Assembly (NCBI GenBank): GCA_030430155.1
Contig: JAUIFV010000023.1
Location: 1 to 39,187, forward strand
DNA: 39,187 bases
Direction of reading: 5' to 3'
From: Gammaproteobacteria bacterium
Lineage (GTDB): Bacteria; Pseudomonadota; Gammaproteobacteria; Xanthomonadales; SZUA-5
The notes beneath the pieces were generated by a model, which was not told the DNA's origin, made no database searches, and was given only the letters and a program-made list of their open reading frames with translations. Of the stretch, positions 2,564-34,547 are shown piece after piece (positions within the stretch are counted from its first letter, which is position 1; each line of letters begins with the position of its first letter). The position numbers were made by a program, and so were the translations under genes.

Positions 2564-2836
2564 TGTGGTGTCCGCAAATTGCCTTGACTTACCAGCGTCT
2601 GTTGCCACTACGCCACGTCTTCGACCGACCGACCTTCACGGTCAGCGCCACCGCCCTGCTGCACTTCAGCTGCGTAGAGCCGCAGCCGGTCAGACGGCGA
2701 GTGACCGCTGATGCGCAGCGTGCGGCTGAGTGAATGCCCCTACAACTGCGCTGCGCTCGACGTGAAGCTTGCGTGAATATCGCTGTCGCGCTATTGAGCA
2801 ATCTGCATCTGCGGCCCGCACCTTGGGTCGTCGATG

Positions 2837-2851
2837 TGGCCGGAGGCATGC
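2837..2851 (+). promoter_or_regulatory. Candidate sigma-54 promoter (-24/-12) for the M48 gene
   Basis: TGGCCGGAGGCATGC has GG and GC with exactly 10 bases between them, the required -24/-12 spacing; the consensus is TGGCACG-N4-TTGC. The site is about 100 bp before the protease start and next to a sigma-54-type regulator. The match outside the GG and GC pairs is only partial, and a chance hit in GC-rich DNA is quite possible. Confidence 0.22.
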
Positions 2852-2953
2852 GGAACGTTCGTCGCCACTCCGAGCCGGGATCAGAGCTGGCCTCATTGCG
2901 CTTGCGATGCGCGATCCAGCCACCACGCCACTCAACCCAGATCGGAGCGATCG

Positions 2954-5900
2954 ATGAACAACCTGTACCCCGCCGGCCCACAACAGGTGCCGGCCGATCT
3001 GACCCGGCCCGGTCCGGCCTACCGCCGGCATGCCTGGTTGGCGATGGGCGGCCTGCTGACCTTCGTAGGGCTCTATTTCGCCTTGCTCGGTTGGTTCGGC
3101 TGGACCGCCTGGCGGCTGATCGGCAGCCTGGTCGAAGGCAGTGCAGGCAATCCCTTCGAGGCCGCGCTGGTCGGCGGCTGCGCCGCCTTCATGGCGCTGT
3201 TCATGGCCAAGGCGCTGGTGTTCTTGCAACGCGGCGGGGAGTCCACGGACATCGAACTCAAGCCCGCCGATCAACCGCAACTGTTCGCCTTCTTGCACCG
3301 GCTCGCAGACGAGGCCGGCGCACCTCGGCCACACCGGGTTTACGTCTCGCCGCGGGTCAATGCCGCGGTCTTTTACGATTTGAGCCTGGCCAACCTGCTG
3401 TTCCCCTCGCGCAAGAACCTGGAGATCGGGCTGGCCCTGGTCAACGTGCTCAACCTAAGCGAGTTCAAGGCGGTATTGGCCCACGAGTTTGGCCATTTCG
3501 CGCAGCGCACAATGGCGGTGGGGCGCTGGGTGTACATGGCGCAGCAGATTGCAGGGCACATCATTGCTCGCCGCGATGCCTTCGACAGCCTGCTGCAAGG
3601 TCTGTCGCGCATCGACCTGCGAGTGGCCTGGATAGGCTGGATACTGCGCCTGGTGGTGTGGTCGGTGCGCTCGCTGGTCGAGTTGATGTTCCGTCTGGTC
3701 GCCTTGGGTGAGCGAGCGCTATCGCGAGAGATGGAGTTTCAGGCCGACCTGGTCTCGGCCTCGCTGGCCGGCAGTGATGCGCTGGTCCACGCGCTACACA
3801 AGCTGCATGCTGCCGATCTGGCCTGGCACCGCGCGCTGGGCTTTGCCGAGAGCGAGCTGCGCGCCGGCCACGGCGTGGCCGATCTGTTCGCACTGCAAAC
3901 CCGAGTGATCGAGCGTCTGCGTCAAGTCTTCGCCGACCCGCATTTTGGCGCCGCCCCGGAGATTCCGGCCGGCCAGGAGGCCACCCACCGGGTATTCAAG
4001 CGGGACAGCGTGTTGGCGCCGCAGATGTGGGCCACCCATCCGCCGGCAGCCGACCGCGAACACAACGTCAAACGCCGCTATGTCGCCGCAGCGGCCGATC
4101 CGCGTACGGCGTGGCTGTTGTTCGAGCAACCACAGGCGCTGCGCACGCAGATGATCGGTCAGATCTACAAGGGCGAACTGCCGCCGCCGGCACCGCTGGA
4201 ACAAAGCCTGCAACGCCTGGACCAGGAATTTGAGCGTCCAACGCTGGATCGCCGCTATCGCGGCAACTTCCTCAATCGATCCATCGTCCGCCACGCCAAT
4301 AGCGTGGACGAACTCTACGTGCCCATCGATGCGCAAACCAACCTGCAGCAGCATCTGGCTTCCCTTTATGGCGACGATCACGACCTGAATCTGGATCGTC
4401 TGCGCGAACTGCGCGAGGATTTGGACGCGCTTCGGGCACTCGAGGGCGACCGCCTGCACGGTGCTGGCGGGCTGGTCCATTGGCGCGGCCGAGCGTTGGC
4501 CAGGCGTGAATTGCCGCGGGCATTGGCTGAGCTGCAACGAGAAATCGAGCCGGTCGCAGCCAGTGTGCAGGACCACGATGCCCGCTGCCGCAGTTTGCAC
4601 CTGCACGCCGCGCGCCAGCTCGGCCGAGGCTGGGATGGATGGCTGGATGGCCTTACCCGGGCCCTGCACTACGCCGAACACACCCTCGCCGACCTGCGTG
4701 ACGCCCAGGGGTTGGTCGCCAACACCTATGCCGTGGTCACCGCCGACGGCAAGGTCTCGGCCGCCGAACTCAGGCGCCTGGTGACCGACTGCAACATGTT
4801 GCACGGGGTGCTCGCGGGGATACATGCCGGCGCCGCACAGATCAGGTTGGGGACGGCGCTTTCCGAGCGTCTGGGGGTGAGCGAGTGGGCTGCAGCGCTA
4901 GAGGAATTCAAACTGCCTTCCTGTAGCCAGGACAACATCGATCCCTGGCTGAAGGCAATCGACGGCTGGGTAAACGCCACTGCCAATGCGCTCAGCGGCT
5001 TGCGCGATGCGGCGCTGGACCTGCTGGTCAGCGCCGAGGCCACCGTCGCCCGCGCGCTGCAGACTGCAGAGCTGCCGGACTCCGCGCCGCAGGCGCCGCA
5101 GTTCCCTGCCAGCTACGCCACATTGGTCACTGGCCAGGAACGCAAGCGGCAGCAGAAGCTGGGTTGGTGGGACCAGTTTCAGACCGCCAGCGGGCTTCCG
5201 GCCTCCATGGCCCGCCTCACCGTTGCCGGCGCGATCGTCAGCTCAGTGCTGTTGCTTGGCGCCTACAGTGGTCACCAGAAGCTGAGCGTCCACAACGGTC
5301 TGGGGCGGCCGGTACTGATCGAGGTCGCCGGGCAATCGCTGCGCCTGCTGCCGAACGCCAGCGCCGAGCTGAAGATCGACCGCGCCGAGCGCCTGCAGGT
5401 ATCAGCGCATACCGAGCAGGGTGAACTGATCGAGAGTTTTACCCAAACCGAGCAGCTGGATGGCAAGCATCTGGTCTACAACGTCGCCGGTGCAGCGCCG
5501 CTGATCTCATGGACCGCAACCTATGGCAATGCTCAAGAACGTCCCTCGGTGCAGCTGGGCGCGCCGCGGTGGCTGTCCAGCTCGGCAGATCACGTCTTCA
5601 CGGAGCCGCCGGAGACGGTGCGCGCACAGACAGGCGGCAGTACCCGCAGCGTCGTGTCAGCGGTCGGCGATGAGGCGATCTCCGAGATCCTCGATGCGAT
5701 GCCCAAAGATGCCGACCCGAGCGCGTTGATCAGCGCGCACGCGCGCTGGGATGCGGCGCATGCCCGCGGCATTCACGGGTGGCTGCTGATGGCCAGTGGC
5801 AATCCAGAGTTTGAGCAACTGCTCAAGGCGCGGCTGGACAGCGATCCGCTGGACATCGCTACCCGCCGGATAGAGCAGGATCTGTCTCGTGCCGACGTCG

Positions 5901-6778
5901 ACCGTCATGCGGCAGTGTGCGAGGAGCACCGAAGATTGGCCGAGGGCAGTCCGCAGGATGCCAATCTTCGCTACCTGGTCCTGCGCTGTATGAGCGATGA
6001 CGACGAGCAAGACGCCGCATTCGCCGACGCCTTACGGCAAACCCCGGACAACCCGTGGTTGAAGTTTGCTGTTTCCGCCGCTCACTCCTATCGCGGTCAC
6101 TGGGCTGATGCCGGACCCCTGCATGCGTCCGCGATGGCCGGGCTGCCGCAGATGCGCGACCACCGGGCAGTCGATCAGGCCCGCATGCTGCGCGCCTTGG
6201 AGGGCAAGGAGAGTGCGCAACTAGCGGCACTGGCGGGTACCCAGCCGACCGTGCAGTGGTACCTCGAGCTTGACCGTGGTCAAGCCCAAGGCGGCGGCAA
6301 TATCGCCAGCTATGAGCAGCTGCGCCTAGGCAACTTGGCCCAGGCGCTGCAGGGCACCAGCATCGGCGCCACCGACACCCTCGCCCTGCTGATCGCCGCC
6401 TCGGTGGACGCTCCGCCCGAGCACGTGCAGGCCATGCTGATTGCCAGTCAGGTCGATTCGGACAACCCGACCGCCCTGTGGCCCGCCGTCGCCCTGGCAA
6501 TACGGGAGGGCGCTGACCCCAGCATCTACGTCGACGCCGCATTGAATGCGATGGCCGGCGATGACGGGCAAGCCATCCAGCGCTTCCTTTGGGCCGTCGC
6601 CGACGGCGCCGACCCGGGCAACGCCGCCGCTCATCTGGGCTACATCGAGCCAACGGCCCGCGGTATCGCTTACAGCAGCGCCACGACCCTGCTCGGCGAC
6701 CGCACGCCGGTGCAGTGGAAGGAAGAGGCTGGGCGCCTGCTGTTCAGCTTCGAGCGGCCCTATAGGCCCGAAGAGTAG
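2954..6778 (+). CDS. Giant membrane M48-family metalloprotease
   Basis: A 1274-residue membrane protein whose first 300 residues are an M48 (HtpX/Ste24-like) zinc protease: HEFGH at 177-181 gives two zinc ligands and the catalytic glutamate, and EFQAD at 261-265 gives the third ligand. Two hydrophobic segments (about 27-50 and 65-90) precede the active site and another lies near 215-245. A long helical cytoplasmic-looking region follows, with a short DGKVSAAELRRL stretch. One more membrane segment is near 754-775, and then a C-terminal region of about 500 residues with helical TPR-like texture in its second half. M48 enzymes are usually about 300 residues, so this is a strongly extended relative. 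The ATG at 2954 was chosen over upstream in-frame codons because GGAG lies 6 bp before it. Substrate and role are unknown; envelope protein quality control is a reasonable guess. Confidence 0.85.
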   Translation: MNNLYPAGPQQVPADLTRPGPAYRRHAWLAMGGLLTFVGLYFALLGWFGWTAWRLIGSLVEGSAGNPFEAALVGGCAAFMALFMAKALVFLQRGGESTDIELKPADQPQLFAFLHRLADEAGAPRPHRVYVSPRVNAAVFYDLSLANLLFPSRKNLEIGLALVNVLNLSEFKAVLAHEFGHFAQRTMAVGRWVYMAQQIAGHIIARRDAFDSLLQGLSRIDLRVAWIGWILRLVVWSVRSLVELMFRLVALGERALSREMEFQADLVSASLAGSDALVHALHKLHAADLAWHRALGFAESELRAGHGVADLFALQTRVIERLRQVFADPHFGAAPEIPAGQEATHRVFKRDSVLAPQMWATHPPAADREHNVKRRYVAAAADPRTAWLLFEQPQALRTQMIGQIYKGELPPPAPLEQSLQRLDQEFERPTLDRRYRGNFLNRSIVRHANSVDELYVPIDAQTNLQQHLASLYGDDHDLNLDRLRELREDLDALRALEGDRLHGAGGLVHWRGRALARRELPRALAELQREIEPVAASVQDHDARCRSLHLHAARQLGRGWDGWLDGLTRALHYAEHTLADLRDAQGLVANTYAVVTADGKVSAAELRRLVTDCNMLHGVLAGIHAGAAQIRLGTALSERLGVSEWAAALEEFKLPSCSQDNIDPWLKAIDGWVNATANALSGLRDAALDLLVSAEATVARALQTAELPDSAPQAPQFPASYATLVTGQERKRQQKLGWWDQFQTASGLPASMARLTVAGAIVSSVLLLGAYSGHQKLSVHNGLGRPVLIEVAGQSLRLLPNASAELKIDRAERLQVSAHTEQGELIESFTQTEQLDGKHLVYNVAGAAPLISWTATYGNAQERPSVQLGAPRWLSSSADHVFTEPPETVRAQTGGSTRSVVSAVGDEAISEILDAMPKDADPSALISAHARWDAAHARGIHGWLLMASGNPEFEQLLKARLDSDPLDIATRRIEQDLSRADVDRHAAVCEEHRRLAEGSPQDANLRYLVLRCMSDDDEQDAAFADALRQTPDNPWLKFAVSAAHSYRGHWADAGPLHASAMAGLPQMRDHRAVDQARMLRALEGKESAQLAALAGTQPTVQWYLELDRGQAQGGGNIASYEQLRLGNLAQALQGTSIGATDTLALLIAASVDAPPEHVQAMLIASQVDSDNPTALWPAVALAIREGADPSIYVDAALNAMAGDDGQAIQRFLWAVADGADPGNAAAHLGYIEPTARGIAYSSATTLLGDRTPVQWKEEAGRLLFSFERPYRPEE

Positions 6779-24309: not shown

Positions 24310-25881
24310 ATGCACGCCGACCGCCGATTGCTGTCCGTGGAAATGATTGCGGCACCGCTGCTCGCGGTCGGACTGCTGGCGCTGGCGGTGCTGCAGTACC
24401 ACTGGCTGGATCAATGGCGAATTGCCGAGGCACAAAGTCGGCAGGCAGCCCTGCAAACGCTGGCCAAAGGCACCGCGGCGCGCATCGATGCCGTCGTTGA
24501 GCAGCATCTGAACCTGCTCAGATCGCTGCTCGATGAGAACGGCCTGCTGGATCTGAACGCCGCCCAGCCGCTGCCCGAAGGGCGCTCGGCCCTCGGTCAG
24601 GTGCTGTGGGTCGCCGATGCTGCCGATCCGGACCTGGGCCCGGTGTGGCGACTGGAGCGCGGCCCCCGCCCCCGCTTTGTGCAGTCCGGCTATGCCGAAC
24701 TGGCGCAGACCGCGGCCCCGCTTTGGGCAAACGGCCCCAGCGGTCTATCCGGCGCGTTGGTCGACGGCGGGGCCCCGCTGCTGATCGTGCCCACATTGGT
24801 TCGAACCAGGCCCGAACTGGCGGCAACCAACGGCGCGCTGATCGCTCGGCTGCGCTTGGACACGCTGCGCGCGCTGCTGACGGAACTCAACCGGGACTCC
24901 GACAGCGACTATGCCGTGCTTGCCGAGTTGAGCCGGTCTCCGTCGGCGCATTCCTGGGCGGTCCCGACGCCAGCGAACTTCCCTGGGCAGCCGGCGGCCG
25001 GCCATTGGTCGCTGTTGCTGAACTACCGCGCCGGCTCGGCGGCCGACTTGGCCGAGAAACTAAAGCACCGCAATCTGATCGTCGCCGCCGGGATCCTGCT
25101 GCTGCTGGCGGCCAGCGCCGGCTTGCTGTGGATGGTCACCCGGCAGCGCCGCCGCCTTGCCGCGCAGCGCTTGAGCATGATCGCAACGGTTTCCCACGAG
25201 CTGCGTACGCCGCTGGCGGTAATCGACTCGGCGGCAGCCAATCTGGCCGAGGGCATCACCGCCAGCGCCGAAGGGGTCGCGGCCTACGGACGACTGATCC
25301 GCGACCACAGCCAGCGGCTGCGCCGGCTGGTTGAGCACGCGCTGGCCCCCGGTGTCCTGGCTAGCAGCGGCGAGGGCCGATCACACCGCGACTGCAGCGC
25401 GCCACTATCAACTGCGCTGCAGACCTGCCTGGACAAGCTTGCCGAGGCGCAGGCAAGGCAGCGCCTGCACTGCAGCGGACCTATGCCGTTGATCGCCGTG
25501 GACGCCACCGATTTGGACTTGATGCTCAGCAATCTGATCGGCAACGCCCTGCGCTATGCCGATCCCGGCAGCAGCGTGCGGCTGCACACCGAAATACGTC
25601 GCTCCTGGTTGCGGCTGGGTCTGAGCAATGACTGCCGCGAACTGCAGCCTGACGAGGCGAAACGGCTGTTCGAACCCTTTTTTCGCGGCCAGCACGCGCG
25701 CAGCGTCCATCAGCCCGGCAGCGGCCTGGGTCTGAACCTGACTTTGGCTATCAGCCAGCGCTATGGCGGCGACCTGCGCCACCGCCTGCAAGACGGACAG
25801 ATTCACTTCGAGCTGCGACTGCCGCTGGCGAGCAGCGCTTCAAAAGCGGATGTTTCCAAGCTTGGCGATGCAAAGAGCTGA
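24310..25881 (+). CDS. Sensor histidine kinase with degenerate G1 box
   Basis: A 523-residue membrane sensor. Membrane helices are at about 11-32 and 257-279; the 220 residues between them form a periplasmic sensing region. The dimerisation domain has SHELRTP with phospho-acceptor H296. In the ATP domain the N box is present (NLIGNALRYA) and the G2 motif reads GSGLGLNL, with FEPFFRG before it. The G1 position, normally DxGxG, reads SNDCREL, so its aspartate and glycines are missing; kinase activity may be weak or depend on a different geometry. The start has no strong ribosome site. The response regulator follows 3 bp after the stop. The GTAAA repeat operator upstream suggests autoregulation. 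Confidence 0.9.
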   Translation: MHADRRLLSVEMIAAPLLAVGLLALAVLQYHWLDQWRIAEAQSRQAALQTLAKGTAARIDAVVEQHLNLLRSLLDENGLLDLNAAQPLPEGRSALGQVLWVADAADPDLGPVWRLERGPRPRFVQSGYAELAQTAAPLWANGPSGLSGALVDGGAPLLIVPTLVRTRPELAATNGALIARLRLDTLRALLTELNRDSDSDYAVLAELSRSPSAHSWAVPTPANFPGQPAAGHWSLLLNYRAGSAADLAEKLKHRNLIVAAGILLLLAASAGLLWMVTRQRRRLAAQRLSMIATVSHELRTPLAVIDSAAANLAEGITASAEGVAAYGRLIRDHSQRLRRLVEHALAPGVLASSGEGRSHRDCSAPLSTALQTCLDKLAEAQARQRLHCSGPMPLIAVDATDLDLMLSNLIGNALRYADPGSSVRLHTEIRRSWLRLGLSNDCRELQPDEAKRLFEPFFRGQHARSVHQPGSGLGLNLTLAISQRYGGDLRHRLQDGQIHFELRLPLASSASKADVSKLGDAKS

Positions 25882-25884
25882 CCG

Positions 25885-26571
25885 ATGCCGTCGCGACTAC
25901 TATTGGTGGAGGATGAGCCGGGACTGGTGCTGACCCTGGGCGATCGGCTGCGCGCCGAAGGCTTCGAGGTGGAGTCCACCGGCAGCGCGGTGCAGGCACA
26001 GGCATGGCTGGAGCAGCGTCGCTACGATGCGGTGATCCTTGACCTGATGCTGCCTGACGGCGACGGCTACGCGCTGTGCCGTCAGCTGCGCCAGCGCGAC
26101 GCGCATACGCCGGTGCTGATGTTGACTGCGATGGCCGCTGTGGAGCAGCGGGTGCGCGGGCTCGCCGAAGGCGCCGACGACTATCTGTGCAAGCCTTTCG
26201 ACGGCCAGGAGCTGGTCGCCCGCGTTCACGCCCTGCTGCGGCGCTCCAAGCTCGCTCCTGCCGCGCCTACACAGCGCCTGCGCGTGGGCACCATCGAAGT
26301 GGATCTGATCTCTGCGGTTTGCACGGTTGATGGCCAAGCGGTGGAGCTGACCGCGCGTCTGTATCAGCTGCTGTGCTGCTTTCTGCGCCACCCCAACCAG
26401 CTGCTTTCGCGAGACCGCCTGCTCAACGAGGTGTGGGGTTATGAGTCCCTACCCACGACCCGCACGGTGGACGTACACGTTGGCTGGCTGCGCCGGCAGA
26501 TCGAAGCCGACCCCGCACAGCCGACGCGGATCCTGACCGTTCGTGGCCTGGGCTACAAGCTGGTGGACTGA
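25885..26571 (+). CDS. OmpR/CpxR-type response regulator
   Basis: A 228-residue regulator partnered with the kinase upstream (3-bp gap). The receiver domain has the acidic pair E9-D10, phospho-acceptor D53 (ILDLMLPDGDG), T81 and K103 (CKPFDG). The winged-helix DNA-binding domain covers about 130-228, with the typical LLSRDRLLNEVWGYE, RTVDVHVGWLRRQIE and LTVRGLGYKL sequences. Its sites are most likely the GTAAA-N6-GTAAA repeats found before its own operon and before the cytochrome operon. Its 3' end converges on the CRTAC1 gene with 8 bp between stops. Confidence 0.95.
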   Translation: MPSRLLLVEDEPGLVLTLGDRLRAEGFEVESTGSAVQAQAWLEQRRYDAVILDLMLPDGDGYALCRQLRQRDAHTPVLMLTAMAAVEQRVRGLAEGADDYLCKPFDGQELVARVHALLRRSKLAPAAPTQRLRVGTIEVDLISAVCTVDGQAVELTARLYQLLCCFLRHPNQLLSRDRLLNEVWGYESLPTTRTVDVHVGWLRRQIEADPAQPTRILTVRGLGYKLVD

Positions 26572-26579
26572 CGCGCTGC

Positions 26580-28442
26580 CTACTCGGCCCGCTGTGCAAC
26601 CTCCAACACTTGATTGGCCGCCACCTGCTCCAGCACCGTTTCGCTGCCATCAGGCCAGCGCACGGTCAGCCTGTCGACGACATCGGCCTTGCCCAATCCA
26701 AAGCTGATCACCGGCTCCACCGAGGACAGATAGGAGCGGCCGGGCATCTGCCGCTGGCGCTGGGTGCTCTCACCGGTGGTCAGACTGACCACGGCACCGA
26801 TGGCATCGCCGTTGCCGGGCTGGCCACGCAGCACCACGCGCAGCCAGTGGTGGCCGAGCTGCTGATCGTTGCGCAGCACCAGCGGCGCGCGCCCCACCTG
26901 GGTGATCACCACGTCCAGATCGCCGTCGTTGTCCAGATCGCCATAGGCCGCGCCGCGACCAACGATGGGTCTGGCCAGATCGCCGCTGGCGTCCGCCGCG
27001 ACCGGCACCATCGGCCGAGCGCAGGTCGCGCCGCAGTTCCAGAACAGCTGCGAGGCCTGCTCGTAGTGCTGACTGGGCTGGACGCTGTTGATGCGGTATT
27101 CGATGTGGCCATTGGTCTGCAGCAGGTCCAACTCGCCGTCCAAATCGTAGTCGAAGAAGAACAACCCGAAGCTCAGGGCCTGACGGCTGTCCGGACCGAT
27201 GCCGGATACGATGCTTTCGTCGGTGAATAGGCTGCTGCCGTCTTGGGCGACATAGAAGGAGGTCATTTCGTTGGCAAAGTTGCCGATCGCCACCGCCAGA
27301 TCGCCGCTGTCGTTGTACCAGGCCGCGTCCAGACCCATGGCGCCAGTGGCGTTGCCGGCGTTGTCGTAGGCGAATCCGGTGACCGCGCCGATCTCCTCGA
27401 AGCGCCCGTCACCGAGATTGCGGAACAGGAAGTTCTGCACGGTGTCGTTGCTCACCGCCAGATCCAGCCAACCGTCGGCGTCGATATCCAGCGCGGTAAC
27501 CGCCAGCCCCTTGCCCATCGGCAGCCCGGTGGCAGGGTTGGTGACGTGCACGCCAGCCTCGGCGGAGACGTCGCTGAAGCGGCCTTCGCCCTGATTGCGG
27601 TAGAGGTGTATCAGCGTGCCCGCGTAGTTCATCGGCGGCCCATAGGCGCGACCGATGCCGGTCAACCGATAATCGATCTCGGCATCGATATCCGGCGACC
27701 ACTGCACGTAGTCGACCACCGCCAGGTCGACCAACCCGTCCTTGTCGTAGTCGAAGAACAGGGCCGCGGTGCTCCAGGCCTCCTGCGCGCCACCAACCCC
27801 AGCGCTGGCGGTGATGTCGGCGAAATTGCCGCCACCCAGGTTACGCAGCAATCGATTCTCGCCCACCGCGGTCAGGTACACGTCGCGCAGACCATCGCCG
27901 TCGACATCCGCCACCGCCACGCCTGTCCCGTACAGCGGCTGATCCAGCCCGGAGCCCGCGGTCACATTGACGAAGCGGCCCTGATCCTCGTTGCGGTACA
28001 GCGCTGAGACCGGCGTCGGCTGAGTGGGCTGCTGCCCCGGCCAGTCGCTGCCGTTGACCAGCAGCAGATCCTGCCGCCCGTCGTTATCCATGTCGAAGAT
28101 CGCCACCCCCGAGCCCATGGTTTCGGGCAGCAGGTGATCACCAAAGGCGCCGTTGTGATGCACGAAGTCGATGCCCCACAGGCTACCGACCTCGGTGAAG
28201 GAGACTGCGGGCGGCTGCCGGGTCGGTGCCGGCGCGGCCTGCGGCGCCTGTAGCGGCGCTTCTTCGACCACTGTCTGTACCGGCTTGCTACGAGTCGCCA
28301 GCCAGATTCCAACGGCGATCAGCGCAATGACCACCACGGCCGCCACCGATAGCCGCAATGCGCGGCCGATGACCCGGTCGTCTACCGGCGCATCCAATTC
28401 CGGATCGTGCTCATCGCGCTGGTTGGGATCGAATGCGCTCAT
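26580..28442 (-). CDS. Membrane-anchored CRTAC1-type FG-GAP/ASPIC protein
   Basis: A 620-residue protein with one membrane anchor at about 27-50 and the rest predicted on the periplasmic side. After a proline/alanine-rich linker it starts with SFTEVGSLWGIDFVHHNGAFGDHLLPETMG, the opening of CRTAC1 proteins. Several calcium-loop FG-GAP/VCBS repeats follow (DMDNDGRQDLLLVN, DVDGDGLRDVYLT, DYDKDGLVDLAVV, DIDADGWLDLAVS, DYDLDGELDLLQTN, DLDNDGDLDVVIT), which build a beta-propeller. A C-terminal ASPIC/UnbV segment ends VRWPDGSETVLEQVAANQV. The ATG overlaps the stop of the pentaheme cytochrome gene as ATGA, so the two products are made together. The function is unknown; a periplasmic partner or scaffold for the cytochrome is inferred. 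Confidence 0.9.
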   Translation of the reverse strand: MSAFDPNQRDEHDPELDAPVDDRVIGRALRLSVAAVVVIALIAVGIWLATRSKPVQTVVEEAPLQAPQAAPAPTRQPPAVSFTEVGSLWGIDFVHHNGAFGDHLLPETMGSGVAIFDMDNDGRQDLLLVNGSDWPGQQPTQPTPVSALYRNEDQGRFVNVTAGSGLDQPLYGTGVAVADVDGDGLRDVYLTAVGENRLLRNLGGGNFADITASAGVGGAQEAWSTAALFFDYDKDGLVDLAVVDYVQWSPDIDAEIDYRLTGIGRAYGPPMNYAGTLIHLYRNQGEGRFSDVSAEAGVHVTNPATGLPMGKGLAVTALDIDADGWLDLAVSNDTVQNFLFRNLGDGRFEEIGAVTGFAYDNAGNATGAMGLDAAWYNDSGDLAVAIGNFANEMTSFYVAQDGSSLFTDESIVSGIGPDSRQALSFGLFFFDYDLDGELDLLQTNGHIEYRINSVQPSQHYEQASQLFWNCGATCARPMVPVAADASGDLARPIVGRGAAYGDLDNDGDLDVVITQVGRAPLVLRNDQQLGHHWLRVVLRGQPGNGDAIGAVVSLTTGESTQRQRQMPGRSYLSSVEPVISFGLGKADVVDRLTVRWPDGSETVLEQVAANQVLEVAQRAE

Positions 28443-31234
28443 GGCGATACCTCCGGAGCCAGCTCGAACGCGCCATCACGCTGCAAATCGTAGATCACCA
28501 CCGCATCGGCGGCGTGATCGGCGGCAGGGTTGGCAGCGCGCGCCGCGGCGATGGCGCGATCGCGCGCGTTGTCATCTACCCGGTATTTGGCGTGCAGCGC
28601 TTGGTGCTTTGCGCTGCCTTCGCTGTCGCCGCGCAGCGCCAGCGCCTGGGAGAGCAGATAGTGGCCACGGGCAAACTCCGGGTCGATGGCCAGCGCCTGA
28701 TTGAGCCTCTCGATGGCTTTGTCCAGCCAGCCGTGCCGCGCCTCGGCGCGCGCATCGCCGCGCTCCAGCCGCGAACGCTCGATCTGCGCCTCGGCCAGCT
28801 GCGCCAGCAGGGTGTAATCCTTGCTGAAGTCGAAGCCGCGATCACGGGCGTCCTGCCATGCGGTGTCCGCCACCCGTTCGAAGCCCGCGATGGCCTGGTC
28901 CAGGTTGCCATTCTGCCAATCCACCAGCGCGCTGAACCAGGTCACCGACCAGGGATAGGCCGGCGTGGCGTGCTGCGCCGCCCGGCCCAGCGCGGCCACC
29001 GCATCGTCCAGCCGCCCTTCGCGCAGATAGACCCTGGCCAAATTCAGCGCGCCCTCGGCTCGATCCAACTGCTCGACCGCGCTGAAAGCAACCTCGGCCT
29101 GACGCAGCTCGCCGCTGCCCTGCTTGCGGAACAAGCCAATGCCGTAGTCGTTCCAGCGCTGCCACAGCGGAATCTCCGATTCTGCGTTGCTGACCTGCTG
29201 CCCGGCCTGCAGCGGAAACTGCAGCCTGTCGCTGGCGATGGTGGTGATCGGCAGATCGTTGTAGCGGAATTGCTCGCCCTGGAAATGGCGCATGTAGGTG
29301 GTATCGAACTTGCGGTACTGCAGCTTGATTTCCACATCGATCGGTCCCGTCGCATCGGCAGGCACCTCAAAGGCGAAGTGCACGCTGTCGGCCGCGCCTG
29401 GCGGTATCTGATTGTTGTAAAGGGGCACGAAGATGTCTTCGGGATTGCGCCTGTCGATGCGATTGCCGTTGCGATCGAGCACATACAGGTTGATGAAATG
29501 CGACCAGGGGTCGACCGCCCCGTCAGCCGGATCCATGCCGCCGCTGCGACCGACAATGCGGCCATTATCTCGGACGATGACATCCAGCCAGATCTCGTTG
29601 GAATCGGCCGTGCCCTGGGTGAAGGGATGGCCCAGACGCATGGTCCGCACCACGGTCTCCAGCAGATACCGCTGCCCCGCCTGCAGCTCCGGCACGCTCG
29701 GCCGCAGCGGCGCGATCAGCTCACCCTCGATGCTGCCCTCACGCTTGAGACCGAACAGATCCACCCGCACGCTGCCCTCGAGGAACTCGCGATGGGCCTG
29801 ATTGACCCACTCGGGCATCTTCAGCAGATGCGGAATGGCGGTATTGGCGGCCGGGAACTGGTGGTCATGCACGCTGCGCTGCCCGCTGCCGTCGAAGTCG
29901 CGGGCGGCAAAATCCGCCGACGGATTGAGCGGCATATGGCAACCATTGCAGTTGGACTGTGCCTTGGGCGGGTAATAGAAGGAATTAACGCCGTGCCCGG
30001 AAACGCCGGAGAGCAGGAAAGTGTCGTAGTGATTCTGCCCGCGCAGCCACTTGTAGCCGTTGAACTCCTCGGGCAGATGCACCTTGTGGCAGCTGCCGCA
30101 GAACTCGGTGCTTTGATGCAGCGGCTTTAGGAAACTGCGCTTGTGGAACTCCGGCTTGGCCTTGACCAGCAGCCGGTTGGTCCAGGCCAGCAGCGGGTTG
30201 TCACTGAAGGCGAAGGGATAGTGGGTCGGCTCTTCGATGGTGTAGTCGGCATTGCCGCGCTGGCTGTTGATGTGGGTGATCGCATGGCAACCGGTGCAGG
30301 TGATCCCCGCCTGCGCGGTGGGATGGTTGACGTCGTCGAAATCCGGATCGTCGAAGGCGCCGGAGAAAAACGGCACCAGATCGTGGCAGCCGGCACAAAA
30401 ACGGGCGGCCTGCACGTTGCCGTCGCGCGCCATGGAGAACTCGCGGGTCTTGCGCACCGAGAACAGATAGGCCGGGTTGTTGAAGGAAGCGAAGCGGTGC
30501 GCGCTGTGCGACCACTTCTGATGCGCATCGGCATGACACTCGGCGCAGTAGTCGTCCATCATCATCGTGCGCGCCGGAATGAAATTGCCGGTAGCGGTAC
30601 GCGCCAACGACGGGAAGAAATACTGCTCGCCGCTGGCCGGCCCGGCCTCGTTCCAGCGCCGCGGATCCTGGGCCTGCAGCACCAGCATCCCCAGCGCGAA
30701 TACCGCCGCCACTGCGGCGATACCGCCGCCCACCCGCCAGCGTATCCGCGGTCCGGCCAACCGATGCAGCACAAACAGCCACACCGCCAACAGCGGCGTC
30801 AGCACATGCGCCCAGTAGGCCACGCTGCGAGCGCCCGGATCGCGCAGCTCGACCAGCGGTATACCGCGGGTCAGGGTTAGTCCTGAGAGCAACAGCACGA
30901 TGGCCACCGCGAACAGCGCATAGCCGACCATCACTGCGCGCCGGTTGGGACGGTTGTAGGCGTTTTTGATGTGGATGGCGCCGTAGACGATGATCGGCAG
31001 GATGATCACCAGGCCCAGCAGCAGGTGGGCCAGAAACATCAGCTGATAAAAATAGTTCTGATAGGTCTGCCCGCTCAGCCACTCCGACAGCGTCACCACG
31101 CCCAGGTAGGTGGCGTTGACCGACAGAATCGCAAACAAAGCCAGCAGCAGCACCAGCAGCTTGCGCAAACGGGGGCCGACCGCCGGCACATAGCGCCGAC
31201 GCTGCGGCGCGACAGGGCGTGGTTGCTCACTCAT
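28439..31234 (-). CDS. Membrane pentaheme cytochrome c with C-terminal TPR region
   Basis: A 931-residue multidomain redox protein. Residues 1-195 hold about five membrane helices with several histidines, resembling a small membrane cytochrome b-like anchor. A periplasmic cytochrome-c554-like part carries five CxxCH heme sites at about residues 230 (CAECH), 280 (CAGCH), 313 (CTGCH), 379 (CGSCH) and 429 (CNGCH). A beta-rich region of about 200 residues follows, and the last 230 residues are TPR-like repeats ending at a CRTAC1 gene coupled by ATGA. The likely task is electron transfer from or to the quinone pool through periplasmic hemes; donor and acceptor are unknown. The upstream region carries two TTTAC words with N6 spacing (31309-31324), matching the operator before the two-component system. 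Confidence 0.92.
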   Translation of the reverse strand: MSEQPRPVAPQRRRYVPAVGPRLRKLLVLLLALFAILSVNATYLGVVTLSEWLSGQTYQNYFYQLMFLAHLLLGLVIILPIIVYGAIHIKNAYNRPNRRAVMVGYALFAVAIVLLLSGLTLTRGIPLVELRDPGARSVAYWAHVLTPLLAVWLFVLHRLAGPRIRWRVGGGIAAVAAVFALGMLVLQAQDPRRWNEAGPASGEQYFFPSLARTATGNFIPARTMMMDDYCAECHADAHQKWSHSAHRFASFNNPAYLFSVRKTREFSMARDGNVQAARFCAGCHDLVPFFSGAFDDPDFDDVNHPTAQAGITCTGCHAITHINSQRGNADYTIEEPTHYPFAFSDNPLLAWTNRLLVKAKPEFHKRSFLKPLHQSTEFCGSCHKVHLPEEFNGYKWLRGQNHYDTFLLSGVSGHGVNSFYYPPKAQSNCNGCHMPLNPSADFAARDFDGSGQRSVHDHQFPAANTAIPHLLKMPEWVNQAHREFLEGSVRVDLFGLKREGSIEGELIAPLRPSVPELQAGQRYLLETVVRTMRLGHPFTQGTADSNEIWLDVIVRDNGRIVGRSGGMDPADGAVDPWSHFINLYVLDRNGNRIDRRNPEDIFVPLYNNQIPPGAADSVHFAFEVPADATGPIDVEIKLQYRKFDTTYMRHFQGEQFRYNDLPITTIASDRLQFPLQAGQQVSNAESEIPLWQRWNDYGIGLFRKQGSGELRQAEVAFSAVEQLDRAEGALNLARVYLREGRLDDAVAALGRAAQHATPAYPWSVTWFSALVDWQNGNLDQAIAGFERVADTAWQDARDRGFDFSKDYTLLAQLAEAQIERSRLERGDARAEARHGWLDKAIERLNQALAIDPEFARGHYLLSQALALRGDSEGSAKHQALHAKYRVDDNARDRAIAAARAANPAADHAADAVVIYDLQRDGAFELAPEVSP

Positions 31235-32013: not shown

Positions 32014-33063
32014 ATGGACTTTGATTACCTGGTTTTTATCGGGCGCTTCGAGCCCTTTCACAACGGCCACGCTGCCGTTGCGCGATACGCACTGAGTCGC
32101 GCCAGGAAACTGATCTTCCTGGTCGGGTCAGCCCACACCCCACGAACCATCAAGAACCCCTGGTCGGTGGCCGAACGCAGCGTGATGATCCAGTCGGCGC
32201 TGGAATCCGACCAGTCGCGGCTGATCATCCATCCCCTGCGTGACCATCTCTACAACGAGAGTCAGTGGGTCGCCGCCGTGCAGCGCAAGGTCGGCGAGAG
32301 CATCAAGGCTGATGGCGCGGAATCCGAGCCCAGAATCGGCCTGATCGGGCAGGACAAAGACGCCTCCAGCTATTACCTGCGCGAGTTCCCGCAGTGGACT
32401 CTGGTCGACGTGCAGCACACCGACACCCTGTCGGCGACCGAGCTGCGCAGCTACCTGTTCGATCCCGACCCCGACGACAGCCGCGGCGGTCGGATGCTGA
32501 TCAAGGCCAACGTGCCGGCGCCGGTGTTCGACATGCTGGAGGCCTTTCGCAAGGGTTCGCCGGCCTTTGCGCAGCTGGTGGCCGAGTTTGCCTTCATCGA
32601 GAAGTACAAGGCGGCCTGGTGCGAGGCCCCCTATGCGCCGACCTTCGTCACCACCGATGCGGTGGTGGTGCATTCGGGGCACGTGCTGCTGGTACGGCGG
32701 CGCGCCGAACCCGGCAAGGGGCTGTGGGCCCTGCCCGGCGGCTTCGTCGGTTCGGAGGAAGACCTGCTCTCGTCCTGCCTGCGCGAGTTACGCGAGGAAA
32801 CCCGGCTGAAGATCCCGCTGCCGGTGCTCAAGGGCTCGATCAAGGGCCGCCAGGTCTTCGATCACCCCGAGCGTAGCCTGCGCGGCCGCACCATCACCCA
32901 CGCCTTCCACTTCGAGTTTCCGACCGGCGCGCTACCGCAGGTGCGCCGCAGCGATGATACCGACAAGGCCCGCTGGATCCCGGTCAGCGAAGCGCTGGAA
33001 ATGAGTTCCAAGCTGTTCGAGGACCATCTGCACATCCTCGAATACTTCCTCGGTCGGGGCTGA
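32014..33063 (+). CDS. nadM: Bifunctional NMN adenylyltransferase / Nudix hydrolase
   Basis: A 349-residue two-domain enzyme. The N-terminal domain is a nucleotidyltransferase with GRFEPFHNGH (H16 and H19 of the HxGH motif) that joins NMN and ATP into NAD; the C-terminal half is a Nudix domain with the box at about 242-265 (GGFVGSEEDLLSSCLRELREE; the final glycine is replaced by arginine). NadM-Nudix fusions of this kind are known in Francisella and cyanobacteria, where the Nudix part hydrolyses ADP-ribose. The ATG has GAGGGAG upstream. The nicotinamide phosphoribosyltransferase gene follows after 59 bp, giving a complete nicotinamide-to-NAD salvage pair. Confidence 0.95.
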   Translation: MDFDYLVFIGRFEPFHNGHAAVARYALSRARKLIFLVGSAHTPRTIKNPWSVAERSVMIQSALESDQSRLIIHPLRDHLYNESQWVAAVQRKVGESIKADGAESEPRIGLIGQDKDASSYYLREFPQWTLVDVQHTDTLSATELRSYLFDPDPDDSRGGRMLIKANVPAPVFDMLEAFRKGSPAFAQLVAEFAFIEKYKAAWCEAPYAPTFVTTDAVVVHSGHVLLVRRRAEPGKGLWALPGGFVGSEEDLLSSCLRELREETRLKIPLPVLKGSIKGRQVFDHPERSLRGRTITHAFHFEFPTGALPQVRRSDDTDKARWIPVSEALEMSSKLFEDHLHILEYFLGRG

Positions 33064-33122
33064 CCCGACCTTCCCGCTGGCGGATAGACCGCCAGCTTCA
33101 TCGACGCGAAGGGGCTTCCGTC

Positions 33123-34547
33123 ATGCAATATCTCAACAACCTGCTGCTCAACACCGACAGCTACAAGGCCAGCCACTGGCTGCAGTATCCCCCCGGCACC
33201 GATGCCACCTTCTTCTACGTGGAATCGCGCGGTGGTCGCTACGACCGCACCCTGTTCTACGGTCTGCAGGCCATCCTCAAGGGCTACTTGAGCCGGCCCA
33301 TCAGCCACGCCGACGTCGATCAGGCGCGCGATCTGTTCGCTGCCCACGGCGAGCCCTTCAACGAGTCGGGCTGGCGCTACATCGTCGATCAGCACCAGGG
33401 CAAGCTGCCGATACGCATTCGTGCGGTTCCCGAAGGTGCCGTCGTGCCCACCCACCAGGCCCTGGTCACCATCGAGTCCACCGATCCGGCGGCCTACTGG
33501 GTGCCGTCCTACCTGGAAACCATGCTGCTCCGCCTGTGGTACCCCGTGACCGTGGCCACCACCAGCTGGCACGTCAAGCAGGTGCTGCGCGGCTTCCTCG
33601 AGCGCACCAGCGACGACCCGGAAGGCCAGCTGCCTTTCAAACTGCACGACTTCGGCGCCCGCGGCGTGTCCAGCGCGGAGTCGGCGGCGCTGGGCGGTTC
33701 GGCTCATCTGGTCAATTTCATGGGCACCGACACGGTGTTCGCCCTGCTCGCGGCCAGGGAGTACTACGCCGAGCCAATGGCCGGGCTTTCCATACCAGCG
33801 GCCGAACACAGCACCATCACCAGCTGGGGACGGCAGCGCGAGGTGGATGCCTATCGCAACATGCTGGCCCAGTTCGCCAAGCCGGGCAGCATCGTCGCGG
33901 TGGTTTCCGACAGCTACGACATCTACCACGCGATCACCGAGCACTGGGGCAAGCGGCTCAGACAGGAAGTGATCGATTCCGGGGCAACCGTGGTCATCCG
34001 TCCTGACTCCGGCGACCCGGTGGACGTCGTCCACCAGTGCCTGCATCTGCTCGGCCAGGCCTTCGGCCATCAGCTCAACAGCAAGGGCTACAAGGTGCTC
34101 AATCACGTCCGGGTGATCCAGGGCGACGGCGTCAACCCCGACAGCATTCGCGCCATCCTGGAGCGGGCCACCAGCGCCGGCTACGCCACCGACAATCTGG
34201 CCTTCGGGATGGGCGGCGCGCTGCTGCAGAAGGTCGACCGCGACACCCAGAAGTTCGCGCTGAAGTGCTCGGCGGCCCGCGTCGATGGGCAGTGGATCGA
34301 TGTCTACAAAGACCCGGTCACTGACAAGGGCAAGCGCAGCAAGCGCGGCCGGATGACCCTGGCCAGAGATCGCCAGGACGGACGCTTGCAAACCCTGCCG
34401 CTACCGGCCGGTGCGATCTCGCTGGCCGAGGTATCGGAGGCGACCGATTATGACGACGCCATGGTCACGGTTTGGGAGAACGGGCACCTGATCCGGGACT
34501 GGAGCTTCGCCGAGATCCGCGAACGCGCCGACGCGGCGCGGCTCTAG
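33123..34547 (+). CDS. nadV: Nicotinamide phosphoribosyltransferase
   Basis: A 474-residue enzyme (NAMPT family) that makes NMN from nicotinamide and PRPP. The phosphorylated active-site histidine corresponds to H229 in SIPAAEHSTITSWG; HDFGARGVSS (from H175) and RPDSGDPVD form the substrate and PRPP pocket. The length agrees with bacterial NadV and human NAMPT (about 470-490). The start ATG has AAGGGG about 9 bp upstream. Its product NMN is the substrate of the NadM-Nudix protein encoded just before it. A strong hairpin lies 37 bp after its stop. Confidence 0.96.
   Translation: MQYLNNLLLNTDSYKASHWLQYPPGTDATFFYVESRGGRYDRTLFYGLQAILKGYLSRPISHADVDQARDLFAAHGEPFNESGWRYIVDQHQGKLPIRIRAVPEGAVVPTHQALVTIESTDPAAYWVPSYLETMLLRLWYPVTVATTSWHVKQVLRGFLERTSDDPEGQLPFKLHDFGARGVSSAESAALGGSAHLVNFMGTDTVFALLAAREYYAEPMAGLSIPAAEHSTITSWGRQREVDAYRNMLAQFAKPGSIVAVVSDSYDIYHAITEHWGKRLRQEVIDSGATVVIRPDSGDPVDVVHQCLHLLGQAFGHQLNSKGYKVLNHVRVIQGDGVNPDSIRAILERATSAGYATDNLAFGMGGALLQKVDRDTQKFALKCSAARVDGQWIDVYKDPVTDKGKRSKRGRMTLARDRQDGRLQTLPLPAGAISLAEVSEATDYDDAMVTVWENGHLIRDWSFAEIRERADAARL

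Follow-up and report, generated by a model that had tools for sequence, protein, structure and literature searches.

Three families of quinone-linked cytochromes, CbcL, CymA and ImcH, are distinguished in the passages of PMC6295460 that deal with them, and CbcL is among the closest described counterparts of the gene pair analyzed here. The pair comprises a gene for a membrane cytochrome with five c-haem motifs and a gene for a membrane-anchored CRTAC1 protein. It lies on the minus strand of a stretch of 39,187 nucleotides (contig JAUIFV010000023.1 of the Gammaproteobacteria bacterium assembly GCA_030430155.1), the whole of which is termed the window below.

CbcL joins a b-type membrane domain to periplasmic c-haems (passages of PMC9129911). 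According to the same passages of PMC6295460, CbcL/MtrH/MtoC proteins carry their c-haems (nine in CbcL) at the N-terminus and six helices at the C-terminus; most members have six transmembrane helices, while four have five and one has four. The window cytochrome presents the reverse order: five N-terminal helices, then five c-haem motifs, then TPR, with CRTAC1 encoded next door. Its number of predicted helices is thus that of a few CbcL/MtrH/MtoC members, and it has four conserved transmembrane histidines as possible b-haem ligands, where those proteins have three. By analogy, the cytochrome may function like CbcL, but it is not classed there, being set apart by this architecture. CymA, of the NapC/NirT type, has one N-terminal helix and a NapC/NirT haem domain, whereas the window cytochrome has five helices and matches PF03264 under the cut-off (E-value 0.63). 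ImcH has three N-terminal helices and seven c-haem motifs (PMC6295460, same passages), against five and five here. If quinone-linked, the window cytochrome would be a fourth design beside these three.

The c-type part resembles the pentaheme c552 (PHC) family, of which Thermochromatium tepidum c552, ExtKL and Gsu2801 are named members, in its five c-haem motifs, its c552 fold and its beta domain. The c552 entry is a single chain of 435 residues, which would be too short to include b and TPR domains. In the passages of PMC11976967, a 2025 study of cable bacteria, ExtKL-type pentaheme cytochromes are described as structurally homologous to T. tepidum c552, and c552 is suggested to be kin of the archaeal nanowire protein AvECN. 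The partner resembles the CRTAC1 family, with FG-GAP repeats followed by ASPIC/UnbV and the fold of mouse CRTAC1, and differs from other CRTAC1/ASPIC-UnbV propellers in having its own membrane helix. A CRTAC1 gene stands beside homologues of hydrazine synthase subunits outside anammox bacteria (passages of PMC12758564), and ASPIC/UnbV genes of Solibacter are named in PMC3174227.

The gene pair and its proposed mechanism

The cytochrome has four invariant membrane histidines beside five c-haem motifs and is therefore probably a b/c protein that passes electrons across the inner membrane. It likely forms a complex with the CRTAC1 protein, because the CRTAC1 gene adjoins the cytochrome gene across clades. 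The features of the pair are as follows.

28439–31234, minus strand: coding sequence of the cytochrome, 931 residues, a putative b/c cytochrome (open reading frame (ORF) list, Pfam, AlphaFold)
30671–31174, minus strand: five transmembrane helices, residues 21–188, a putative di-haem cytochrome b (AlphaFold helices, invariant histidines and glycines)
Within these helices: putative b-haem ligands H70 and H88 (helix 2) and H143 and H157 (helix 4), with G104 and G118 in helix 3 (AlphaFold, conservation)
30533–30547, minus strand: c-haem motif 1, CAECH, residues 230–234 (this and the next four from motif and conservation)
30383–30397, minus strand: c-haem motif 2, CAGCH, residues 280–284
30284–30298, minus strand: c-haem motif 3, CTGCH, residues 313–317
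30086–30100, minus strand: c-haem motif 4, CGSCH, residues 379–383
29936–29950, minus strand: c-haem motif 5, CNGCH, residues 429–433
29210–29779, minus strand: beta domain, residues about 486–675, with the conserved motif GHxFTQGT..SN..W and H536 as a candidate haem ligand (alignment, AlphaFold, fold match)
28511–29167, minus strand: TPR solenoid, residues 690–908 (Pfam, AlphaFold helices, fold match)
28450–28454, minus strand: GGAGG, the likely ribosome-binding site for CRTAC1, within the cytochrome gene (sequence)
28439–28442, minus strand: ATGA stop/start overlap (sequence)
26580–28442, minus strand: coding sequence of the pair-type CRTAC1, 620 residues (ORF list, Pfam, AlphaFold)
28293–28379, minus strand: N-terminal membrane helix of CRTAC1, residues 22–50 (AlphaFold)
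26604–26804, minus strand: ASPIC/UnbV domain of CRTAC1, residues 547–613 (Pfam)

The junction of the two genes reads GGAGG-N7-ATGA, with the TGA stop of the cytochrome at 28441–28439 and the ATG start of CRTAC1 at 28442–28440. An earlier note on this DNA had described a membrane pentaheme cytochrome with a TPR tail, a membrane CRTAC1 protein with its own anchor, propeller and ASPIC end, and an ATGA overlap between their genes; the features above bear out all three. The overlap alone does not imply the fixed stoichiometry that the note drew from it. Its electron-transfer complex is retained in so far as the conserved adjacency makes a complex likely, and is revised in that the membrane domain resembles a di-haem cytochrome b and seems more than an anchor.

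We consider it fairly probable, with reservations, that the b/c cytochrome links the quinone pool to the periplasmic pentaheme, with the membrane-anchored CRTAC1 as a docking scaffold; the domains, the invariant haem residues, the pairing and the co-occurrence are shown, and haem content, complex, scaffold role and quinone link are what we infer here. The N-terminal five-helix domain would hold two b-haems. Judging by topology, H70 and H143 would ligate a haem near the periplasmic side, and H88 and H157 one near the cytoplasmic side. Electrons could then pass, in either direction, between the membrane quinone pool and the periplasmic pentaheme c domain. The CRTAC1 propeller, which lacks haem motifs, may sit on the cytochrome as a docking scaffold and hold the pentaheme head beside a partner, which in relatives would probably be a TPR/FG-GAP protein encoded upstream. 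Should this mechanism prove true, it would add an electron route between membrane and envelope in Planctomycetota, Verrucomicrobiota, Acidobacteriota and some Pseudomonadota. Bacterial CRTAC1 proteins, abundant and so far unexplained, would also gain a first role that can be tested.

Relatives of the cytochrome are numerous. At least 574 were found in a one-genome-per-species collection, of which the best 80 were kept, yet no paper on the pair was found in a search for the pair or for a role of bacterial CRTAC1 in mainly open-access literature, and it may be described elsewhere. A close relative (>500 bits) is present in 15 of the 61 genomes of the window's order, its own genome included. A sample spread over the phylum gave one match in 299 genomes at E≤1e-100, namely the window's own genome. 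In Planctomycetota, 72/246 genomes match at E≤1e-25, including the centre genome, which was picked for having one. These matches comprise 37 of clade A (>800 bits) and two more distant groups, B and C. Identity to the window cytochrome is roughly 60% in clade A, 37% in B and 31% in C; clade B cytochromes are mostly 880–1070 residues long and those of clade C mostly 700–790. Twenty loci per clade were chosen by hand, those of clade C being 19 from the Planctomycetota scan and one from another genome scan.

A putative di-haem cytochrome b in the membrane

The AlphaFold model of the cytochrome (mean pLDDT, its per-residue confidence score, 89.2 over the whole model) places helices at residues 21–54, 61–92, 98–121, 133–159 and 166–188. 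Only four histidines precede the first haem motif, a stretch of 230 residues: 70, 88, 143 and 157. We aligned the window cytochrome with 89 relatives at full length, omitting 5 of 95 loci with shorter ORFs, and all four histidines were identical in 90/90 sequences, as were all 15 cysteines and histidines of the CxxCH motifs. The four were likewise kept in all 60 sequences drawn from clades A, B and C. Across this three-clade set, the only invariant columns of the membrane domain were the four histidines and two glycines 14 residues apart, which correspond to G104 and G118 in the window. Two pairs of histidines on two helices and a pair of glycines on a neighboring helix form the classic pattern of a di-haem cytochrome b. 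On this pattern, the membrane domain appears to be a di-haem cytochrome b and more than a plain anchor.

Searches of the 60 membrane fragments against Pfam at E≤0.1 found DUF4405 in 20 (best 1.2e-5) and cytochrome b561 in nine (best 2.1e-6), one clade B fragment being among the matches to such models. In the PDB, the top match to a profile of the membrane domain was cytochrome b reductase 1, a weak one (E-value 0.009). The membrane part of the model was hardly covered by either fold search, and its fold is left unstated. Mean counts of lysine and arginine over 71 aligned rows were about 4 each for the N-terminus and loops 2-3 and 4-5, about 0 for loop 1-2 and about 2 for loop 3-4. By this distribution of positive charge, the N-terminus lies inside, as do loops 2-3 and 4-5, and the haem head lies outside; in that topology, H70/H143 would be the outer pair and H88/H157 the inner pair.

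Several results weigh against a quinone-linked cytochrome b. DUF7139, a family whose function is not known, was matched by 12/60 fragments, and several unrelated membrane families by one to four. The membrane fragment of the window itself matched neither b561 nor DUF4405 even at E≤10, giving only a weak line to cytochrome bd subunit II (E-value 2.1) and unrelated families. No quinone-site motif was identified. The pairing of b-haem ligands is deduced from topology, and the structures were predicted as single chains without haems.

The pentaheme head and the TPR tail

Above the Pfam cut-offs, the cytochrome matches Cytochrome_C554 at residues 230–317 and three TPR models, with further TPR models below cut-off. 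When the Foldseek candidates were re-ranked structurally, the penta-heme cytochrome c552 of T. tepidum (5ze8) came first, with a Z-score of 15.8 over 344 residues at a root-mean-square deviation of 3.7; the match covers model residues 220–673. Agreement in sequence with c552 is weak (profile E-value 1.8e-4), with haem motifs 1–3 aligning in order. With the whole cytochrome as query, the 50 Foldseek matches listed are TPR proteins, judging by their titles. Four matches to the cytochrome c assembly family (PF01578) exceed the cut-off in the window's genome.

Outside the haem motifs, the head histidines common to the three clades (60 sequences) are 246, 364, 458 and 536. H536 is present in 59/60 sequences, the remaining one having a gap, and H246 is replaced by arginine in one of the 90; conservation of H373 and H402 is confined to clade A. 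With four common histidines for five haems, the distal ligand of at least one haem is either specific to a clade or absent. The same shortage would suit a head that is itself an enzyme, with a haem that lacks a fixed distal ligand as a small-molecule active site, the b domain feeding or draining it, and CRTAC1 shaping the route of the substrate. The conservation of H373 and H402 in clade A alone and the CRTAC1 gene among the genes of hydrazine synthase homologues (PMC12758564, same passages) are consistent with this alternative. We nevertheless regard it as unlikely, if the strongest of the alternatives: additional histidines conserved in clade A would suffice for five bis-histidine haems; the motifs in the window are all CxxCH, with cysteines and histidines invariant in 90 sequences, and not the CxxCK active-site motif of NrfA (PMC6976685); and no substrate site is known. 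A general Pfam scan recognized no hydrazine-synthase-like genes among the window ORFs, the subunits not having been used as queries.

In clade C, the first c-haem motif is CX4CH (e.g. CGTSGCH) and not CxxCH in all six cytochromes checked (L144, L147, L151, L153, L161 and L163); in L151 it lies at residue 236.

The earlier note counted the TPR tail as an interaction module. In clade C, alignment of the cytochromes to the clade A profile stops at residues 650–680 or so, short of the TPR region at 690, and yet they pair with CRTAC1 in 19/19 loci. An essential docking role for the TPR was rejected for this reason, and the tail does not define the pair.

The CRTAC1 partner

Pfam models above cut-off in the CRTAC1 protein are FG-GAP_3 (six stretches), FG-GAP and UnbV_ASPIC (547–613). 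Its AlphaFold model (mean pLDDT 86.6) consists of one long helix at 22–50, followed by a beta propeller and the ASPIC domain, and the best fold match is mouse CRTAC1 (9etn, E-value 7.7e-32; profile E-value 1.9e-26). Identity to the window's protein is 47–59% for 54 of the paired CRTAC1 proteins. In 12 genomes scanned, CRTAC1 proteins split into a close group (47–57% identity to the window's) and the rest (at most 43%, one 45% fragment aside). None of the CRTAC1 ORFs tallied contains a CxxCH motif.

Residues 18–33, which run up to and into the membrane helix, have a mean column identity of 0.68, equal to that of residues 79–620, while their flanks are less conserved (0.30 for 1–17 and 0.36 for 34–50). 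The loop 259–270 combines a pLDDT below 50 with a mean column identity of 0.79, as expected for a loop that folds on a partner. From their conservation, 18–33 (at the cytoplasmic entry to the membrane) and 259–270 are candidate contact sites. A contact specific to the pair was considered for the loop, but other CRTAC1 proteins carry similar loops and it may be a feature of the family.

The conserved segment at the membrane could also guide insertion, as would suit an assembly or stability factor for the cytochrome that is not part of the working complex. A protein without CxxCH motifs, encoded downstream of the cytochrome with an overlap, is compatible with such a role. We give this explanation a small chance, smaller than that of an enzymatic head: the mean column identity of CRTAC1 (54%) is near the 57% of the cytochrome, which would suit a working subunit, and some 600 residues is, in our opinion, large for a chaperone. 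A docking scaffold remains the reading we prefer for CRTAC1.

CRTAC1 genes are numerous in some genomes, with 21 matches at E≤1e-30 in the genome of locus L062 (G070) and 18 in that of L046 (G062). At L046, L062 and L064, several CRTAC1 and TPR genes stand in a row upstream of the cytochrome. The window's genome has a second CRTAC1 group on another contig (L184:1175-7289, contig C27), consisting of a TPR/FG-GAP protein, a TPR protein and a CRTAC1 protein, with no cytochrome. It is conceivable, though we hold it doubtful, that CRTAC1 propellers (up to 21 per genome) serve for docking in electron-transfer machines of the envelope, of which some might feed nanowire-like pentaheme cytochromes.

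Conservation of the pairing

Pairing was counted from profile searches of stop-to-stop ORFs if CRTAC1 started at most 1 kb downstream on the same strand, and loci were used if they had at least 250 bases downstream or a match; left out for lack of room were one locus of the window's order, six of the best 80, none of clades A and B and one of clade C. Adjacency, whose rarity elsewhere would have spoken against the pair that the earlier note proposed, was frequent: CRTAC1 lay downstream in 13/14 loci of the window's order, 66/74 of the best 80, 18/20 of clade A, 15/20 of clade B and 19/19 of clade C, in sets that overlap (L042/L164 and L092/L168, at a minimum, look like duplicate records) and with broken genes (L131, L145) scored as found. 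Since the pairing is kept in three clades, chance is excluded.

Eight loci of the best-80 set lacked the pairing. In two of them (L058, L085), CRTAC1 is on the same contig and strand at a distance of 2.2–2.3 kb. The genomes of the other six have one clade A cytochrome each; in five (L046, L076, L084, L089, L094), one or two close CRTAC1 genes (48–55% identity) are present on other contigs, and in the sixth (L095) no close CRTAC1 was found. The miss in the window's order (L013) has just 337 bases downstream.

Among the 61 genomes of the window's order, 15 have the cytochrome and 15 a close CRTAC1 (>390 bits); 14 have both, one has each alone and 45 have neither (hypergeometric p 1e-11, uncorrected for kinship). 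Both singletons look like assembly breaks: the cytochrome is cut short in one (G032), and CRTAC1 begins 57 bases into its contig in the other (G001). The genes are adjacent in 13 of the 14 genomes with both; in the remaining one (G002), the two are on different contigs, close to a contig end in both cases. For the paired trees, branch lengths correlate with r 0.83 over 53 pairs, two of them non-adjacent (L058, L085), against a maximum of 0.15 in 2000 shuffles. In the cytochrome tree, members of a phylum mostly group together (7 changes over 6 groups, the least possible being 5). Lateral transfer of the pair as a unit was considered; this coherence fits an old, mostly vertical pair with some transfer.

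Two results count against a functional partnership. No CRTAC1 was near in 5/20 clade B loci (L132, L137–L140) and 2/20 of clade A (L174, L178), as seen at the locus, and part of clade B looks partnerless in this view. The tree correlation is weak evidence for interaction, because shared ancestry contributes to it, much of the cytochrome tree mirroring the division into phyla. Within clade B, a subgroup of about 880–920 residues (L137, L138, L139/L191, L140/L192) has its b- and c-haem residues intact and no nearby CRTAC1.

A third gene upstream

In the window's order, the module usually has three genes, the third encoding a TPR/FG-GAP protein of about 1100 residues (domain content was checked in six proteins). 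At ≥37% identity it was found in 13 genomes of the order sample, all of them cytochrome-bearing, and by coordinates it stands directly upstream in 12 of these, the exception being G018; it is partly visible in 11 loci of the order with short flanks. Among clade A loci with room, it is directly upstream in 13/81. It was found upstream in 0/20 clade B and 0/19 clade C loci, two of the latter (L156, L158) holding a partial match elsewhere. The window pair has no adjoining TPR/FG-GAP gene. Its genome and two congeners have only divergent versions (27–32% identity); the version in the window's genome is on a different contig, where a TPR gene and a CRTAC1 gene are its neighbors.

TPR also occurs at the C-terminus of CRTAC1 in 3/3 long clade C partners scanned (of 19). 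The presence of TPR on different proteins of the system favors physical contact. It is also at odds with mere co-expression, in which two envelope proteins would serve the same condition without contact, an explanation that gains from contact being deduced and that we rate as improbable, a shade below an assembly factor, given the pairing in three clades, the co-occurrence even of unlinked genes and the shift of TPR from the cytochrome in the window to CRTAC1 in those partners.

Conserved neighboring pathway genes were sought by clustering the ORFs of 89 loci and rejected, the next recurrent cluster occurring in only eight loci at scattered positions; many flanks were short, the CRTAC1-like cluster also contains the upstream TPR/FG-GAP proteins, and clusters were not annotated singly. 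With no other family in more than 8/89 loci, the module looks self-contained. Least probable of the alternatives, and quite unlikely, is that an extracellular electron-transfer route has its entry in the inner membrane at this pair, with a head akin to nanowire cytochromes: the c552 fold, likened to ExtKL-type proteins and suggested kin of AvECN (PMC11976967, same passages), and a domain set that works like CbcL, CymA and ImcH would suit it, whereas mtrH and mtoC often stand among other cytochrome genes (PMC6295460, same passages) and this pair lacks such recurrent company.

Surroundings of the pair

The neighbors of both genes are ordinary, as judged from window ORFs and Pfam. No NCBIfam model exceeded its cut-off in the cytochrome or CRTAC1, and no Pfam family of haem proteins was matched at E≤1e-4 among 20 other window ORFs scanned. 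Promoter and terminator scans were unrevealing (two promoters against 1.3 expected, six terminators against 3.1). A protein of 1314 residues (2834–6778, plus strand) has an M48 peptidase domain at 145–413 and no other Pfam match at E≤1e-4. A histidine kinase and an OmpR-type regulator (24310–26571, plus strand) are convergent with the pair and end 8 bases from the CRTAC1 stop. Past the cytochrome start, on the opposite strand, lie a 2TM-domain gene and genes resembling those of nicotinamide adenine dinucleotide (NAD) synthesis; at 32014–34547 (plus strand), a nucleotidyltransferase-Nudix fusion adjoins a nicotinamide phosphoribosyltransferase-like gene, probably an NAD-synthesis pair.

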